A stretch of 64,000 bases of DNA. Origin: Dietzia sp. ANT_WB102 (GTDB lineage Bacteria; Actinomycetota; Actinomycetes; Mycobacteriales; Mycobacteriaceae). Where the stretch lies: positions 1,083,630 through 1,147,629 of the forward strand of contig NZ_VOBA01000001.1 of NCBI RefSeq assembly GCF_008369165.1, given 5' to 3'. Numbering within the stretch: position 1 is the first letter of the stretch; each line of letters begins with the position of its first letter. This document shows, one piece after another, positions 32,873 to 57,443 of the stretch. A model generated the notes under the pieces. It was given only the letters and a program-made list of their open reading frames with translations. It did not search any database and was not told the DNA's origin. A program made the translations under genes and the position numbers.

Positions 32873-33081
32873 TTCACCACGTCAGCCGGGGTCGGCGCAT
32901 ATCTGCGGACGCTGTCGGGGGGCCCTCGCCGCGCCGGTCGGTCGGAGATGTGGCAGGTCTCACGTGGTTTCGGCGGGCGATTCGGGAACGAACGAGGCCC
33001 ATCATGCGCTGAAATGGAGAGCAGTCCGTTTTGTGCGGCCGGGCGTCCGGTCGGCGGGCGCAACCTTGCAGGAGGTGCGTG

Positions 33082-33900
33082 GTGGACGTGGATGACCTCA
33101 CGGAGCGATCAGTCGCCGAGCGGGTGCGAACAGTGCTCGCCAGAGGTGCGGCAGGGACGGTCGAGGCCGGGGTCCTCAGGCGGCCCCTGCGCTCTGCGCG
33201 GGTCCGGGACGACGGCGTCGTCGTCCTGGTAGTCGACGTGGCGGGCGTGTCTCGCGACGCTGGCAACGCCGATCGGGTCGTGGGCACTGGCGCTGCCGCG
33301 ACCGTCGAGATTGTCGACACGGTGTGCACCGGTCGGTGCCGGTCGTCCGCGTCGCGCCCATCATTCGCCCTCGACGGCCGCGCCGCGTCAGGGTCGGAAC
33401 GTGATGGGGAGTGCGACGACGAGTGCGCTGTGGCCCGGGGTGTGGTCACTCTCTCGGGTATCGTGACCGCCTCTTCTGCAGCACGCAGGCGCAGGTTGGT
33501 CACCGCCGACGGCGGCGGGGCAGGCTCGACCGGGGAGGGTGGAACTCTCCAGCTGAGCGAACTGCAGCCCCTGGAGATCACGTACCTCACGTCGGATGGG
33601 GTGCACATGGTTGCGCGTGCGGATCTCGCCGCCGCCGCGGTCGACCCGATCGGTGTGGACGAGCAGGTGTGGTTGCGCCGATTGGCGTCCGATGCCGGCC
33701 TCGCAGCTCGACTCGCGTTGCGTGCCGGGCGGCAGATCGCGGGCACGCAACCCCGCATCGTGGCGATAGATCGACGCGGGATCGATCTCATGATCGGCTC
33801 GACCGCTGGCGTGTTCGGCGAGCGTGTCCGTCTGCCGTTCGCGCAGGTCTGCAGCAATTCCGATGAGGTATTGGCCGAGCTGGCAACGCTGTCGAGCTAG
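33082..33900 (+). CDS. DUF2470-like protein
   Basis: 272 residues from a GTG six bases behind AGGAGG. The C-terminal ~75 residues (RQIAGTQPRIVAIDRRGIDL ... ERVRLPFAQ) match the DUF2470 pattern of an aliphatic strand, 'hDR-GhDh', then 'hRLPF', as found at the C-terminus of HugZ-like heme-utilisation proteins. The N-terminal part is poorly conserved and has a Cys-rich patch (CTGRCRS, CDDEC). It is clearly related to the protein encoded at 34069-34845, which lies behind an iron box. Heme or iron-linked function is inferred from family and context. Confidence 0.7.
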   Translation: MDVDDLTERSVAERVRTVLARGAAGTVEAGVLRRPLRSARVRDDGVVVLVVDVAGVSRDAGNADRVVGTGAAATVEIVDTVCTGRCRSSASRPSFALDGRAASGSERDGECDDECAVARGVVTLSGIVTASSAARRRRLVTADGGGAGSTGEGGTLQLSELQPLEITYLTSDGVHMVARADLAAAAVDPIGVDEQVWLRRLASDAGLAARLALRAGRQIAGTQPRIVAIDRRGIDLMIGSTAGVFGERVRLPFAQVCSNSDEVLAELATLSS

Positions 33901-33937
33901 GTCTGGGCGCACTAATTCCCCAAAAGCCCTTGCGTCG

Positions 33938-33956
33938 AAGGTAAGCCTTACCTAAA
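33938..33956. promoter_or_regulatory. DtxR/IdeR iron box
   Basis: GAAGGTAAGCCTTACCTAA matches 15 of 19 positions of the iron box TTAGGTTAGCCTAACCTAA and is itself a near-palindrome (AGGTAAG-CCTTACCT). It lies 113 bp upstream of the DUF2470-like gene at 34069. Iron-dependent repression of that gene is the direct reading. Confidence 0.85.
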
Positions 33957-34068: not shown

Positions 34069-34845
34069 ATGCGATCACTGGTGGGACCCGTTCCTGAGCC
34101 TGCCGAGCGGGCGTGCTCGGCCCTGCGGCGTTGCCCGAGGGCCACACTGGACCCGGGCACCACGACCACAATGGCTCCGGCTCCGGTCGCACTCGTGCAT
34201 CAGGTCCCGGGAACGAGCCACCTCAACCTGGTCATCCCGACGGCCGACGCCACCGCCATCGGCTCCGGGGGAGTGCGGGCGCGCCTCGAGGTCGTCGACG
34301 AGATCCTCGGAGGTGCAGCTCAGGGCCGGCGCCGCCGTTTCGCCGTCGTCGAAGGGCGAGTCGACCAGCTCAGCACGGGCGCCCAACGCCACACCGCCAC
34401 CCACATCGCGCGCGACCTCCCCGACTCGGCACTCCTGGGCGTCGGGTCCGACTCCACCCTCGTCCGGCTCCGGGCGGAACGGATCCTGCTCACCGACGAC
34501 GACGGCGTCACCGACATCGCCCCCGACGACCTCGCCACTTCCGGGCCCGACCCCTTCACCGACCTCGAGGGACACTGGCTAGACCACCTCAACGACCCGC
34601 GCTGCCAGGTGGTCCCGCGGATCGCACTGCGCGTCTGTCGCTGCCTACCCGCCGTTCGCCCCCTCCTGGTGGGCATCGACCGCGCCGGAGTCGACATCGA
34701 ACTGGTAGACCGCGAGAATCGCGTCCGTCGCGCGCGGCTGCCGTTCGCCGAGGCGTGCACGTGCGTCACCGAGCTGGGTACCCAGCTCCGTCTGCTCGCC
34801 GGGGGCTCGCGGTACCCTCAGGACCGTGCTGCTCTCCGACCGTGA
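34069..34845 (+). CDS. Iron-box-controlled DUF2470-like protein
   Basis: 258 residues from ATG behind GAGAGG. The N-terminal half resembles a pyridoxamine-oxidase-like split barrel in outline ([29 protein letters not shown]), and the C-terminal part (about 168-250: [13 protein letters not shown] ... [16 protein letters not shown] ... RARLPFAEA) is a DUF2470 domain as in HugZ-type heme-degrading or heme-binding proteins. A Cys-Val-Cys pair near the end (EACTCVTE) is notable. With the iron box upstream, a role in heme-iron use is likely but not shown. It overlaps dcd by 20 bp. Confidence 0.75.
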
Positions 34846-50971: not shown

Positions 50972-50990
50972 TGAGGATAGGCTAACCGAT
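50972..50990. promoter_or_regulatory. DtxR/IdeR iron box
   Basis: TGAGGATAGGCTAACCGAT matches 15 of 19 positions of the iron box TTAGGTTAGGCTAACCTAA. It lies 57 bp upstream of the start of the iron-binding lipoprotein, where a repressor would cover the promoter. Confidence 0.9.
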
Positions 50991-51046
50991 GGTAAGTTGC
51001 GTGTGTTCCTGACGACGCACCATTCGTAGCCTGCTTGGAGGCCTCC

Positions 51047-52069
51047 GTGACGCTCCGTTCCCGAGCCCTCGCCGCGACGATGTCCGGAGTGCTGATCGCA
51101 TCGCTCTCGGCGTGTGGACTCTCCGGCGGCGATGACGACGCCCTGGTGGTGTACAACGCCCAACACGAGTCGCTCACGCGCGAGTGGGCCGACGCGTTCA
51201 CCGAAGAAACCGGCGTGAAGGTCGAACTTCGCAACGGCAGCGACTTCGACCTGGGTAATCAGCTGGTTGCCGAGGGCGACGCCTCGAAGGCCGATGTCTA
51301 CCTGACGGAAAACTCCCCGGCGATCTCGATGGTCGCGGACAAGGGGCTGCTTGCGCCGGTGGAGGATCAGTCCCTCGCCCAGGTCCCCGAGCAGTACCGT
51401 CCGTCGACCGGGGACTGGGTCGGGATAGCCGCCCGCTCCACGGTGTTCGTGTACAACGAGCAGGCTGTTGCCGAGGAGGACCTGCCCAAATCGTTCGCAG
51501 ATCTCGCGACCCCGCGTTGGCAGGGCAAGTGGGGTGCCGCCCCGGCGGGCGCGGACTTCCAGGCCATCGTCTCCGCGGCACTCGAACTCTCGGGGGAGCA
51601 GCAGACCCGCACGTGGCTCGAGTCGCTGCGCCGACCCGACGGGGGATTTTCCACCTACAAGGGCAACAAGCCGATTCTGGCCGCCGTCAACGCGGGCGAG
51701 ATCGACGGCGGGGTCATCTACCACTACTACTACTTCGGTGACCGCGCGGGCACCGGGGAGTCCTCGCAGAACGTCGGACAGTACTACTTCCGCAACGGTG
51801 GGCCCGAATCCTTCCTCTCGCTCTCCGGAGGGGGAGTCCTCGGCACCGCGCCGCATGCCGAGGAAGCCCAGCGCTTCCTGGCCTTCATCACCTCGCAGAA
51901 GGGCCAGGAGATCCTGCGGGACTCGTCCTTCGAATACCCGGTGGCATCAGGCGTGTCCGCTGCCCCGGAGCTCGTGCCACTGCCGGAACTCAACGCCCCG
52001 GACGTGGACCCGGCAGGATTGAACGGCCCCGCCGTGACCGACCTGCTCACCTCGATCGGTCTGGCCTGA
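51047..52069 (+). CDS. Ferric iron ABC transporter substrate-binding lipoprotein
   Basis: 340 residues from GTG, five bases behind GGAGG. Lipobox SLSACG near residue 24. The body is FbpA/FutA/Sfu-type: LVVYNAQHESLTREWADAF, YLTENSPAISMV and the Tyr-rich iron ligand site VIYHYYYFGD. It binds free or weakly chelated Fe(III) outside the membrane. First gene of an iron-box-controlled operon with the permease (8 bp later) and ATPase. Confidence 0.93.
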   Translation: MTLRSRALAATMSGVLIASLSACGLSGGDDDALVVYNAQHESLTREWADAFTEETGVKVELRNGSDFDLGNQLVAEGDASKADVYLTENSPAISMVADKGLLAPVEDQSLAQVPEQYRPSTGDWVGIAARSTVFVYNEQAVAEEDLPKSFADLATPRWQGKWGAAPAGADFQAIVSAALELSGEQQTRTWLESLRRPDGGFSTYKGNKPILAAVNAGEIDGGVIYHYYYFGDRAGTGESSQNVGQYYFRNGGPESFLSLSGGGVLGTAPHAEEAQRFLAFITSQKGQEILRDSSFEYPVASGVSAAPELVPLPELNAPDVDPAGLNGPAVTDLLTSIGLA

Positions 52070-52076
52070 TCCGCGC

Positions 52077-53702
52077 GTGACCACGCTCGCGCCCCGCCCG
52101 CCCGCGACATCGGGCGAGTCTGCCCTGCAGCCCGAGCGCGCGCCATCCCCACGCGACGGAGGCAGGCGGCGCGCAGGACGGACCGGCCGACGGGCTCCGG
52201 TGGTCCTTTTGCTCGGAGTGGCCGCGTTGACCGCGCTGTTCCTCCTGCCAATCGGCTACATCGTGTGGCTCACGATCGACATGGGGATCGACCGTGTCGG
52301 GGAACTGATCCTGCGCGAGCGTGTGCTCCACCTCCTGTCGTCCACGACTGCGCTGGTGGCCGTGACTGTGCCACTGACGGTGGTGATCGGCGTGGCCACT
52401 GCGTGGCTGGTGGAGCGGACGGCGCTGCCGGGGCGACGTGTCTGGGGAGTGCTCTTCGCCGCCCCGCTGGCTGTCCCGGCGTTCGTGACCAGCTACGCGT
52501 GGCTCGGGGTCGACCCGACGATCGGTGGGCTCAGCGGTGGAGCGCTCATCGCGGTGTCCTCGTATTTTCCGCTGGTGTACCTCCCGGCGGCGGCGACACT
52601 CCGATGGATCGACCCTGCAGAGGAGGAGGTCGCGCGTTCGCTCGGGCTGTCCCCCCTGCGGGTTGCCGCACGAGTGATGCTGCCGCAACTCCGACTGGCC
52701 GTGCTGGGCGGGGCACTGCTGGTGGCCCTGCACCTGCTGGCCGAGTATGGCGCCTTTTCCATGATCCGGTTCGACACCTTCACTACCGCCATCGTCGATC
52801 AGTATCAGTCGACGTATGCCTCCGAGGCCGGTGGGATTCTGGCCGGGGTGCTGGTGCTGCTGTGCCTGCTCTTGCTCATGGGGGAGGCCTCGGCCCGCGG
52901 GCGGGCCCGGTACGCCCGCCTGGGGTCCGGTGCGGCGCGTCGCTCTGCGCCCGTGCAGTTGGGCGCATGGACGGTGCCGGCTCTGCTGGGATGCGGCGCG
53001 GTGGTCGGGGTCTCCCTCGGAGTGCCTCTCTTCGTGGTGATCCGCTGGCTCGTCGTCGGTGGCGCCGACGTGTGGACCGACCCTCGGCTCGCCGAGGCGT
53101 TCGGCCAGTCGGTGGGGTACGGCTTCTACGGCGCCGCCGGGTGCGTGGCGCTCGCCCTGCCGGTGGCCTGGTTGACGATCCGCTACCCGGGCCCCGCGGC
53201 GCGACTCGTGGAAGCCTGCAACTACGTTGCCAGTTCACTGCCGGGGATCGTGGTGGCGTTGGCGCTCACCACCGTGTTCATCCGGGTATTGCCGCAGCTA
53301 TATCAGACCGTTGTGATGGTGCTGGCGGCATACGTTCTGCTGTTCATTCCGCGAGCGGTGGTCACGCTGCGTGCCGGTCTGGCGCAGGCACCCGAACGAC
53401 TGGAGGAGGCCGCACGGGCACTGGGGCGCCCACCACTGGTCGCGGTCTTCACGGTGACGCTGCGGAGAATGCTGCCCTCGTTCGTCGCCGCCTTCGCGTT
53501 GGTGTTCCTGGCCGTGGTCAACGAACTCACCGCGACGTTGCTGCTCTCGCCGGCCGGGACGAGCACGCTCGCGACCCGCTTCTGGTCTCTCGGACTGGAT
53601 CTGGACTACGCGGCAGCGGCACCGTTCGCGCTCATCATGATCGTGATGAGCGCCCCCATGACGTATCTGCTGCTGCGTCAGACCGCGGCGGGCAAGCCAT
53701 GA
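52077..53702 (+). CDS. Ferric iron ABC transporter permease (fused)
   Basis: 541 residues with about twelve membrane helices, two binding-protein-dependent permease domains in one chain. EAA-type loops are seen at [22 protein letters not shown] and [23 protein letters not shown]. The duplicated single-chain form is typical for FbpB/SfuB iron permeases. The ATPase start overlaps its stop by four bases. Confidence 0.93.
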
Positions 53703-54757
53703 CCCCCCGGACAGTCGGCCGGGAGTTGAGCGTCCGCGGCCTGCGCAAGTCCTTCGGGGACCGGACGATCCTTCGGGACATCAACCTCGAGGTCCCCGCG
53801 GGTGATTCGGTGGCTGTGGTCGGTCCGTCGGGATGTGGGAAGACGACGCTGCTGCGGATCATCGCCGGGTTCGAACGCCCGGACGCCGGGAGCGTCCGCC
53901 TGGGCGAGCGCGAACTCGTCGGGGCACACCGTGCCGTCCCCGCACACAAGCGTCACATCGGGTATGTCCCCCAGGATGGCGCGCTGTTCCCGCATCTCAC
54001 CGTAGGGGGCAACGTCGGATTCGGACTGCCCCGCCGGGAGCGCACGCCCGATCGGATCGCGGAACTACTCGACCGCGTCCACCTTGATCCCGCCACGGCT
54101 CGGTGGCGCCCCGATCAGCTATCGGGCGGGCAGCAGCAGCGGGTGGCCGTCGCGCGGGCGTTGGCACAGTCCCCGCACGCCGTTCTGCTGGACGAGGCGT
54201 TCTCCGCCCTGGACGCGGGCCTGCGCGCAGAGATCCGGTCCTCGGTCGCGGAGATCCTCCGCGCCGGGGGCGTGACGACCGTGCTGGTGACGCACGATCA
54301 CGAGGAAGCCTTGTCCTTCGCTGATCAGGTGGCCGTGATGCGCGACGGAAAGTTTGCCCAGGTGGGTACGCCCCGCGAGGTCTATCTGGAGCCGGTGGAC
54401 CGGGCCACCGCCGAGTTCTTCGGGGACATGGTGCGGCTGGAGGGGGATGCCCGCGACGGAGTGGCCGCCACCGCGCTTGGGCCGGTCAGGCTCGTCGGTG
54501 ACGTGGCAGATGGTCGGGTGGCGCTGTCCGTACGGGCCGAGCAGGTGCTGCTGGGCTCGGTCTATTCCTCAGCCGCCAGGGGCGTCGTGCGCGACTGCAG
54601 GTTCCTCGGCGCATCCGTGCGGTGCCTGGTCGACGTGGATGGTGCAGGGACGGTGGCGGCCCGCTGCCGACCCCAGGACGCGCCCGTGCCCGGTGACGCG
54701 GTCGGGCTCACTGTGGTCGGCCAGGGGTGGGTGGACCGACTCACTCCTGATCGGTGA
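53699..54757 (+). CDS. Ferric iron ABC transporter ATP-binding protein
   Basis: 352 residues. Walker [11 protein letters not shown]-loop [14 protein letters not shown], signature LSGGQQQR, Walker [13 protein letters not shown] and H-loop VTHDHEEAL, followed by a C-terminal TOBE-like regulatory domain (about 240-350). It is FbpC-like, driving iron import with the permease. The next gene (54831) starts 74 bp later on the same strand with no hairpin between. Confidence 0.94.
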
Positions 54758-54830
54758 GCGGCTCGACTCACCAGGTGGCCGATCGCTCGGGGGGCACTGA
54801 CGGAGCAGTGATGCCGAGGGTGGAGTTCAC

Positions 54831-57443
54831 GTGACGATGACACTGACGCAGCTGGACCGCGCACTGCGGCCGCACGCCCTTGTCTCGCTTCTTGACGGGT
54901 GGGGCAGCGCGGTCGCCGTGATCGCGGACGAACAGGCGCTCACCTACGAGCAATTGGCCCGACGTATCCGCGATCGCGCGGCGGAATTCCCGGCCGTCAC
55001 GACGGGGCGTCGGATGATCGGGGTCGTCGCCACCAACTCGGTGCCGTTCCTCATCGACTATCTCGCCGCCCTCGAGGCCGGGCACGCCGTCCTACTGCTG
55101 CCGCCCGGCGGTGCGGCCACGTCCACCCTCATCGAGTCGTGGGCTCCCGATCTCGTCGTGGGCGCCGGGGAGCGGATCCACGACTCCGGGCATGCGGCTC
55201 CGCGTCACGAGCTGCATCCCGACCTCGCGCTGCTCCTCAGCACCTCCGGCTCCACCGGCACGCCCAAACTGGTGCGGCAGTCACGCCAGGCGGTGCTGGC
55301 AAATGCCCGGTCAATCGCCCACTACCTGCACATCACCTCCGACGACCGCGCCATCACGACCCTGCCTCCGCACTACTGTTACGGGCTGTCGGTGATCCAC
55401 AGTCACCTGCTTGTCGGGGCCTCGATCGTCCTCAACGAGGCGTCGGTGTCCACTCCCGAATTCTGGGACCGGGCACTCGCCCACGACGTCACGACCTTCG
55501 CGGCGGTCCCCCACACGGTCGAGTTGCTCGAACGCGTGGGATTGGACCGGCTCGACGAGCTGCCGCTACTGCGGTACCTGACCCAGGCGGGTGGTCGACT
55601 GGCGCCCGCGGCCGTCCGCCGGCTCGCCGAACATCTCGAGTCCCGCGGCGCCCACCTGGTGGTGATGTACGGCCAGACCGAGGCGACGGCCCGCATGGGA
55701 TACCTGCCGCCGCACCTGGCGCGCACCCGCCCCGAAGCCGTGGGGGTGGCGATCCCCGGCGGATCGTTCCGGGTCGATGTTCGCGGTGACGGCGAGGAGG
55801 GGGAACTCGTTTATCGCGGTCCGAACGTGATGATGGGGTACGCCCGCTGCTCGGCCGACCTGGCCGGCGGGCCGGAACTGGAGGAACTGCGCACCGGGGA
55901 CTTGGCGCGCATCGCCGACGACGGCCTGGTGGAGATCGTCGGCCGGCTGGGGCGCGAGGCGAAGATCTTCGGCCATCGGATCGATCTCGGCCGGGTGGAG
56001 GCGTCTCTAGCCGAGAGCGGCATCGATGCCTGGTGCGTGGGGGAGTCTGATCGGCTCGTCGTGGTGATCAAGGAGTGGAACGACGGCCGGAACACGAGGG
56101 CGGCCGCGTCCCGGGCCTCCGGGCTGCCCGCGCCCACGATCGACATCCTCGAAGTGGCCGAACCGCCCCGTACGTCCGCGGGGAAGGTCGACAACGCCGC
56201 GCTGCGGGAGCTGGTCGCAGCGAGACCGCGGGCCGCCGATACCGGGTCGGCGGATCCGCCGAGCACGCTCGTGGCCCGGGCGCTCGCCCTCACCGACCCG
56301 GACCCCGCTGCCACGTTCGTCGACCTCGGTGGGGATTCGCTGACCTACGTGGTGCTGTCCACTCGGCTGGAGGAGCAGGTCCCGGGCCTCCCTCGGGACT
56401 GGCACCTGCATTCGCTGCGCGAACTCGACGCACTGGCCCGGTTGTCCGCGCCCGAGCTCGGTCGCCGATGGCTACCGTGGAGGTCTTGGCCCCGCGTCGA
56501 CATCTCGGTGGTCCTGCGTGCGGTGTTCATCCTCACCATCGTCGGCACCCACACCCGTGCGCTCGCGATCATCGGCGGCGCCCACGTGTTGATCGCACTC
56601 ACCGGGTATTCGATGGCGCGATTCCGTCTCCAATCACCCGACGCGCGGCAGCGGGCGCGGGGAGTCCTGCGCACGGCGGGGAGGATCGCGGTACCCGCCG
56701 TGCTCTGGCTGGCCGTGACCACCCCGTTCACGAGTCGCTACCACTGGTACTCACCGTTGTTGGCGACCAACATCGTCGGCCCGCACTCGTGGTGGGCGGA
56801 TCGGTGGTGGAATCCGTGGCAGATGTGGTTCATCGAGGCCGTTGTCTACGCGCTCGTGGCGGTCGCGGCGCTTATGTCGATCCCGGCCGTCACCCGGCTC
56901 GACCGGCGACTACCACTCGCGCTTCCGGCCCTCATCGTGGCCGCGGGGCTCACCGTGCGGTTCCGGGTCATCGATCTCGGGGGCGGGCCGCAAGTGTGGT
57001 ACTCCGCCGCCGCCGTCGCGTGGTTGTTCGGTTTGGGATGGGCGATCGCCCGCAGTGACCGGATGCTGACGCGCCTCGCGTGTTCGGTGGTCGCGGTGGC
57101 GTGTGTTCCCGGCTGGTTCGGTGACCCGGGGCGCGAAGCCGTGATCACGGTGGGTCTGCTGGTGCTGATCTGGATGCCCGCGGTGCGACTTCCGCGCCTG
57201 CTCGTCCGTCTGCTCACACCGCTCGCCGCCGCCTCGCTCTTCATCTACCTCACCCACTTCCTCGTCTACCCGCCGATCCGGGACGCCGGCCACCCGTGGC
57301 TGTCGATGGCGGTCTCGTTGGCTGTCGGGATGATGGCCTGGTGTCTGTGGGAACGGGGGACCCGCGCGCTGGCGTTGTGGCGGGGCGCGCGGGCTGTCGG
57401 CCCCGGGCGTCGGCTCCGGGGCGCCCCGACCCGGCACGGGTAG
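54831..57443 (+). CDS. Adenylation - carrier protein - acyltransferase-3-like membrane fusion
   Basis: 870 residues. (1) An ANL adenylation domain, residues 1-460: ATP loop LLLSTSGSTGTPKLV (137-149), YGQTEATARMG, hinge RTGDLARIADDG, and C-terminal TSAGKVDNAALRE with catalytic Lys452. (2) A thiolation domain, about 475-535, with the phosphopantetheine serine Ser503 in DLGGDSLTYVVL. (3) A membrane domain, about 560-850, with eight to ten helices. It opens like acyltransferase-3 proteins (RAVFILTIVGTH ... ALTGYSMARF; His574). No condensation or thioesterase domain. The layout implies activating an amino or hydroxy acid, loading it on the carrier and transferring it through the membrane enzyme, functionally like Dlt. 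It sits behind the iron ABC operon. The substrate and acceptor are unknown. Confidence 0.88.
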   Translation: MTMTLTQLDRALRPHALVSLLDGWGSAVAVIADEQALTYEQLARRIRDRAAEFPAVTTGRRMIGVVATNSVPFLIDYLAALEAGHAVLLLPPGGAATSTLIESWAPDLVVGAGERIHDSGHAAPRHELHPDLALLLSTSGSTGTPKLVRQSRQAVLANARSIAHYLHITSDDRAITTLPPHYCYGLSVIHSHLLVGASIVLNEASVSTPEFWDRALAHDVTTFAAVPHTVELLERVGLDRLDELPLLRYLTQAGGRLAPAAVRRLAEHLESRGAHLVVMYGQTEATARMGYLPPHLARTRPEAVGVAIPGGSFRVDVRGDGEEGELVYRGPNVMMGYARCSADLAGGPELEELRTGDLARIADDGLVEIVGRLGREAKIFGHRIDLGRVEASLAESGIDAWCVGESDRLVVVIKEWNDGRNTRAAASRASGLPAPTIDILEVAEPPRTSAGKVDNAALRELVAARPRAADTGSADPPSTLVARALALTDPDPAATFVDLGGDSLTYVVLSTRLEEQVPGLPRDWHLHSLRELDALARLSAPELGRRWLPWRSWPRVDISVVLRAVFILTIVGTHTRALAIIGGAHVLIALTGYSMARFRLQSPDARQRARGVLRTAGRIAVPAVLWLAVTTPFTSRYHWYSPLLATNIVGPHSWWADRWWNPWQMWFIEAVVYALVAVAALMSIPAVTRLDRRLPLALPALIVAAGLTVRFRVIDLGGGPQVWYSAAAVAWLFGLGWAIARSDRMLTRLACSVVAVACVPGWFGDPGREAVITVGLLVLIWMPAVRLPRLLVRLLTPLAAASLFIYLTHFLVYPPIRDAGHPWLSMAVSLAVGMMAWCLWERGTRALALWRGARAVGPGRRLRGAPTRHG

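Follow-up and report, generated by a model that had tools for sequence, protein, structure and literature searches.

In a 64,000-nucleotide stretch of the Dietzia sp. ANT_WB102 genome (contig NZ_VOBA01000001.1; the whole stretch is called the window below, and the genome is 3.28 Mb in size), an Fe(III) ABC transporter of the SfuABC type is followed by the gene for an 870-residue protein that joins an adenylation domain, a phosphopantetheine carrier and an acyltransferase-3 (AT3) membrane domain in one chain, hereafter the fusion. We suggest that the fusion may be a single-chain enzyme that activates an acid, carries it and exports it as an acyl group, with a product that helps SfuABC to gather Fe(III). 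This reading is tentative and falls somewhat short of an even chance. Its basis is that an iron-control site or the importer lies near the fusion in most of the actinomycete relatives examined, which makes acid attachment outside the cell, in the service of iron gathering, a likely role.

We searched 394 genomes of the class for the fusion (E ≤ 1e-100) and for the lipoprotein type of the transporter (E ≤ 1e-35), which were present in 63 genomes from 26 of 138 genera and in 113 genomes, respectively. The lipoprotein gene was found in 62 of the 63 fusion genomes versus 51 of the 331 others (one-sided Fisher test, 1.5e-39, not corrected for kinship). The exception, G353, holds a three-domain protein whose AT3 match scores 28.8 versus a cut-off of 31 bits. 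Within genus g2, counting listed genomes only, the fusion occurs in 10 of 12 lipoprotein genomes and in 0 of 13 lipoprotein-free ones (p 2.0e-5). The dependence is one-sided: the importer can stand alone, whereas a fusion that lacks it is rare. Since 51 genomes hold the lipoprotein alone and the fusion nearly always comes with it, the fusion seems to be an add-on that feeds the transporter. The tie to iron is closer and more widespread than the initial annotation of this locus had noted. The fusion itself is patchy rather than universal, given its presence in 63 of the 394 class genomes and in 16 of 396 genomes of a phylum sample (E ≤ 1e-80).

The fusion might instead acylate a wall glycan or glycolipid as part of a general response to iron starvation, with a product that does not bind iron. 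AT3 enzymes mostly acylate surface sugars, according to the available part of PMC9558356, and of nine stand-alone adenylation relatives examined, six lie in clusters resembling those for sugar acylation; in three of these six a discrete carrier gene was called. However, such envelope remodelling would not predict one particular type of Fe(III) lipoprotein in 62 of 63 fusion genomes, and we regard it as improbable.

A protein search with the fusion gave 6124 matches (E ≤ 0.001). Of the matches listed (at least 120), most are full-length relatives that carry an AMP-binding domain and, wherever these were scored, PP-binding and AT3 domains as well, and a few are partial; they come from Dietzia, Rhodococcus, Arthrobacter, Microbacterium, Brevibacterium, Kineococcus, Catellatospora and other genera. 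The closest among them are Dietzia proteins at 66-72% identity, one Rhodococcus-labelled protein at 72% and one further protein at 81%. Gene order was compared in two sets of loci. The first comprised 80 named loci, the best by similarity, and a lipoprotein or permease match was found within the fetched DNA in 44 of them; 36 had no such match, partly owing to contig ends. The second was drawn from the class sample, which was picked independently of neighbourhood, and covered 61 of the 63 fusion loci. Here a lipoprotein gene lies within about 7 kb of the fusion in 46 of 61 loci, spanning 16 of 25 genera and 11 of 16 families. These 46 loci show four layouts, with the lipoprotein gene upstream on the same strand (17), downstream on the same strand (8), divergent (10) or convergent (11). 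That the pair stays together through repeated rearrangement points to a joint function, and the recurring iron-transporter neighbourhood expected by the initial annotation was thus found in relatives, along with iron boxes of their own.

The link is not uniform. Outside the class it is weaker: of nine loci, two of which are partial or cut off by a contig end, two have a lipoprotein nearby and four a fusion box of at least 13/19. All 12 Nocardia loci of the first set (L077, L078, L080, L087-L089, L091, L096, L099, L100, L104 and L112) lack a box of at least 13 matches within 350 bases and a transporter in the DNA examined; they share a conserved local neighbourhood, and a close SfuA relative is encoded elsewhere in the four genomes tested. 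L082, L085, L107 and L114 likewise have neither box nor transporter. For 26 genomes of the first set without a lipoprotein or permease match near the fusion, the lipoprotein gene was found elsewhere in 24, including 4/4 Nocardia tested, 4/4 Dietzia and 5/5 Cryobacterium; the genomes of L085 and L107 had none.

Variation is also seen inside Dietzia. In the window and in L039, L042 and L043 the transporter lies between hspR, the gene of a heat-shock regulator, and the fusion. It is absent from L038, L040, L041 and L048, where the fusion comes straight after hspR and has a 13-14/19 box of its own, and where the genome holds a lipoprotein of the other subgroup elsewhere.

The features of the window on which the analysis rests are the following.

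50972..50990, + strand: DtxR/IdeR-type iron box, 15/19 (consensus from the available part of PMC1382209)
51035..52069, + strand: Fe(III)-binding lipoprotein, SfuA/YfuA-like, with lipobox LSAC (structure-sequence matches to SfuA and YfuA)
52077..53702, + strand: iron(III) ABC transporter permease, two BPD_transp_1 stretches per chain (Pfam)
53699..54757, + strand: iron(III) ABC transporter ATPase with a TOBE domain (Pfam)
54758..54830, + strand: 73-base gap in which no terminator-like site, sigma-70-like promoter or iron box was seen
54831..57443, + strand: 870-residue adenylation-carrier-AT3 fusion (open reading frame, Pfam, relatives)
54831..56222, + strand: ANL adenylation domain (about residues 1-464) with P-loop TSGSTGTPK, Cys183, Arg288 and Lys452
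56265..56378, + strand: phosphopantetheine carrier domain (residues 479-516, Ser503; Pfam)
56472..57440, + strand: AT3 membrane domain as folded alone (residues 548-870) with Arg563 and His574

The lipoprotein, permease and ATPase reported upstream of the fusion are all present as open reading frames with Pfam or homology matches. The lipoprotein gene ends at 52069 and starts at TTG 51035 or, going by the ribosome-binding site, at GTG 51047; the ATG of the ATPase gene overlaps the permease stop. The gap before the fusion is 73 bases rather than the 74 bp given originally, and the absence of a hairpin holds: terminator-like and sigma-70-like sites were looked for in 54758-54830 and none was seen. 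A promoter or terminator there, which the initial annotation had taken as speaking against iron control of the fusion, therefore did not turn up, nor did a second box, the best iron-box match in 54700-54850 being 9/19. We thus set aside a separate promoter or terminator for the fusion in the window, and infer that fusion and transporter are cotranscribed there.

The iron box claimed at 50972 is present: TGAGGATAGGCTAACCGAT at 50972-50990 agrees at 15 of 19 positions with TTAGGTTAGGCTAACCTAA, the DtxR/IdeR-type consensus as printed in the available part of PMC1382209. It is a weak box with four mismatches, which is why a scan of the window allowing up to three came back empty. Two places only in the window reach 13/19, at 50972 and 33937. 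Genome-wide, a degenerate pattern gave 11 and 11 matches versus 7 and 8 in the backwards control, slightly above it, and with up to two mismatches allowed the 50972 box was not among the matches. The other place in the window is a 15/19 box on the minus strand (33937-33955), between genes at 33031-33900 and 34069-34845 with weak DUF2470 matches under the curated cut-off; it lies upstream of a gene for a dCTP deaminase at 34826.

A box of at least 13/19 was found at the start of the fusion or of the lipoprotein gene in 56 of 61 class loci (all except L137, L151, L133, L146 and L179). Where the lipoprotein gene is upstream on the same strand (n = 17), the box is at the lipoprotein in 15 and at the fusion in 4. 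In the remaining loci (n = 44) the fusion has its own box in 39, including all 11 convergent loci and 13 of 15 loci without a lipoprotein nearby. In the 10 divergent loci the two genes can share a single box, and of the eight with the fusion first on the same strand, five have a fusion box and five a lipoprotein box. A box at the lipoprotein when that gene is upstream, and otherwise at the fusion, fits operon logic. Among control starts of the same class loci, with fusion and transporter masked, 2 of 405 reached 13/19, both in L192; an earlier, less-masked control on the 80 loci gave 28/930 versus 44/80 for fusion starts and 35/42 for lipoprotein starts. A 19-bp box near the promoter, the mark of the DtxR/IdeR regulon, is thus weak at 50972 and conserved in relatives, from which we infer that a DtxR-type regulator would repress the operon with iron.

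The transporter appears to be of the Fe(III)-ion type. Its lipoprotein belongs to the SfuA/YfuA group (SfuA 1xvy, E 2.9e-113; YfuA 1xvx, E 1.9e-111), and Tyr231-Tyr232 are kept in all 46 fusion-linked lipoproteins of the class sample; of these 46, 33 have the N-terminal His, and at the Glu position of LTEN 32 have Glu and 13 Gln. Both marks of SfuA/FbpA membership, related sequence and adjacent iron-binding tyrosines, are therefore found, and together they identify the partner of the fusion as an Fe(III)-ion transporter by sequence. Lipoproteins near the fusion fall into two subgroups, with about 45-62% and about 30-39% identity to that of the window.

All three domains claimed for the fusion, AMP-binding, carrier with Ser503 and acyltransferase-3, match above the curated Pfam cut-offs. 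The AMP-binding match covers residues 124-337, and the P-loop TSGSTGTPK at 138-146 and the catalytic Lys452 in SAGK, an invariant column, are as expected of ANL enzymes. By sequence and fold the domain is an ANL enzyme, with PltF, VinN, HitB, oxalyl-CoA synthetase and MenE as close structures (VinN: 27% identity over 328 residues, root-mean-square deviation 2.8). The PP-binding match covers residues 479-516 with Ser503 in a GGDSL motif, and the window's genome has two phosphopantetheinyl transferase matches, so that the carrier could be activated.

The initial annotation had considered aminoacylation. Enzymes that activate amino acids bind the amino group with an aspartate (VinN Asp230, GrsA Asp235; available part of PMC11253843). 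When the fusion is aligned with VinN the corresponding position is Cys183, and when it is aligned with LgrA it is Gly185, so that neither is Asp; across 77 aligned sequences the Cys183 column is at least 90% Cys and the Gly185 column invariant. In VinN, Arg331 holds a carboxylate. This arginine aligns with Arg288 of the fusion (residue 286 in the numbering of the 77-sequence alignment, where P0001 begins two residues later), which is invariant in 77/77 fusions and kept in 9/9 stand-alone relatives; VinN Lys330 and Arg331 are called key residues in the available part of PMC11253843. The missing aspartate and the invariant arginine weakly favour an acid that is not an amino acid. As a guess by analogy, Arg288 may bind a second acidic group on the acid. 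Aminoacylation is therefore not supported. The most direct form of it would be a one-chain Dlt-like system, in which D-alanine, glycine or another amino acid is loaded and then transferred by the AT3 domain to a polymer of the envelope. The order of activation, carrier and membrane transfer does recall DltA-DltC-DltB, but the amino-group position is Cys183 or Gly185 and the membrane domain is AT3, not MBOAT, leaving this only a slim chance.

The stand-alone adenylation relatives (about 38-42% identity) were also considered as a guide to the substrate. Six of the nine (L119-L122, L124 and L126, e.g. L121:8050-10458, L122:7819-10305 and L124:6829-11564) form another recurring cluster amid sugar-modifying genes. 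By gene names taken from reading the sequences, a short-chain dehydrogenase and a LuxE-like protein occur in all six, a LuxC-like protein in four and a discrete acyl carrier, as called, in three. Although Arg288 is common to 9/9, most of these relatives lie in this different cluster without a recognised product, so no substrate follows from them and the analogy was dropped.

The acyltransferase-3 assignment of the membrane domain is borne out. PF01757 matches residues 561-839 at 42.1 bits versus a curated cut-off of 31, and at E up to 0.01 in 62/62 relatives; one each of the 62 AT3 regions also weakly matched YphA, MFS_1 and DUF6056. The predicted model has the TmAT fold and resembles HGSNAT. 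A Foldseek search of the domain against the PDB returned no match below E 0.1, HGSNAT scoring E 1.0. Arg563 and His574 are invariant in 62/62 with a spacing of 11, matching the essential first-helix residues Arg14 and His25 of OafB. We rejected an MBOAT or a transporter as the identity of this domain, given the PF01757 match, the HGSNAT-like fold and the absence of any MBOAT family match. A fold search of viral models with the AT3 model (m784eb526f2e9) returned one match, A0A345N001 (637 residues, E 1.6e-4).

Neighbouring genes were searched by clustering heuristic open reading frames of the 80 loci and by reading the neighbours at 16 of 20 unlinked loci. Apart from the transporter, no dedicated substrate or acceptor gene recurs across genera among the neighbour clusters listed. 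Setting aside the transporter and open reading frames antisense to it, every listed cluster that reaches 9 to 12 loci reflects synteny within Nocardia. A downstream carbon-nitrogen hydrolase was discarded as part of the system, since it accompanies the fusion only in Dietzia loci (6/80). No substrate-making gene was seen to travel with the fusion, so both the acid and its acceptor are probably common metabolites or components of the envelope.

The chief alternative is that the enzyme makes a small chelator that diffuses away. In this view the AT3 domain would join the carried acid to a soluble polyol, amine or hydroxy acid, the product would leave the cell, its Fe(III) complex would reach SfuA, and the fusion would be a one-module siderophore synthetase with AT3 as its releasing step. 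The same link to iron and to the transporter speaks for it, no IucA/IucC match was found in the window's genome, and a similar architecture in Microbacterium is termed a siderophore-type NRPS (nonribosomal peptide synthetase) in the available part of PMC7438953. Of the domains expected in an NRPS for siderophores, adenylation and carrier are found, but condensation and thioesterase domains are absent, with no Pfam match in the fusion at E up to 0.1. In addition, no exporter or tailoring gene was seen recurring across genera among the neighbours examined, and SfuA/YfuA-type proteins bind the bare ion rather than siderophores. Weighing these points, we think a diffusible chelator distinctly unlikely. 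A cell-bound form of our proposal, in which, under iron starvation, Fe(III) ligands are built in place on the outer face by acylation after export and SfuABC harvests the ion, we consider possible but doubtful.

Overall, we propose that acyl export by the fusion serves iron gathering as follows. In low iron, DtxR-type repression would be lifted and the operon with the fusion expressed. The adenylation domain would activate a small acid with ATP, and the acid would be held on the pantetheine of Ser503. The carrier would then be the acyl donor to the AT3 domain, which would pass the acid across the membrane onto an acceptor outside. The acylated product would gather Fe(III) and raise the supply to the adjoining SfuABC importer. 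What the sequences show is the ordered domains with their key residues, the AT3 match with its predicted fold, the iron boxes and the linkage to the transporter; the carrier as donor, the passage of the membrane and iron capture as the purpose go beyond this and are proposals. Of the iron-linked single-chain enzyme originally proposed, the iron link stands and aminoacylation is not supported; membrane crossing and the nature of the acceptor are the deduced parts.

What is added is a domain combination whose gene order, own iron boxes and co-occurrence across genomes tie it to Fe(III) import. It raises two questions: can an AT3 enzyme draw its acyl group from a carrier within its own chain, and how do Fe(III) importers of Gram-positive bacteria that work without siderophores obtain soluble iron? 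If the proposal of in-place ligands is true, a cell-bound chelator made by an activate-carry-export machine would be a new bacterial iron uptake route. Some antiSMASH 'NRPS-like' matches may be fusion enzymes rather than reflect peptide synthesis.

The open-licence literature searched holds no description of a function for the fusion, and print elsewhere may hold one. The AT3 literature searched makes no mention of AMP-binding or carrier-protein fusions, and the term AMP-binding is absent from the available parts of PMC12161575, on the Streptomyces iron regulon, and PMC1382209. The claim that no function is described thus stands for this literature, but the architecture itself was seemingly listed earlier. 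The available part of PMC7438953 reports an antiSMASH 'other' type A NRPS of Microbacterium with adenylation, carrier and terminal acyltransferase, adjoining an aminopeptidase N gene and considered siderophore-related; that part mentions neither an iron transporter or iron box nor AT3 or membrane transfer. Compared by description only, it probably belongs to the same family as the fusion.

Several known systems share part of this design. The epsilon-poly-L-lysine synthetase (Pls) also combines adenylation, carrier and membrane region in one chain, but its membrane region consists of condensation-like domains that polymerise lysine, not of AT3. The transporter resembles SfuABC/FbpABC in its lipoprotein, double permease, ATPase and Tyr-Tyr iron ligands, and differs in its coupling to an acyltransferase fusion, which is unreported for this importer type in the open-licence literature searched. 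By the features examined, the fusion is a member of the AT3/TmAT enzymes (OafB, OatA, HGSNAT), with PF01757, the predicted fold and a first-helix Arg and His spaced by eleven; unlike them, it has its own adenylation and carrier domains and no SGNH domain. With DltA-DltC-DltB it shares ANL activation, phosphopantetheine carriage and transfer by a membrane enzyme, but it is one chain, has AT3 instead of MBOAT, lacks the amino-acid aspartate and is accompanied by iron boxes. Since both the MBOAT partner and the aspartate failed to appear, the fusion, judged by its domains, is an enzyme that would work like a one-chain Dlt system but is not a Dlt member.

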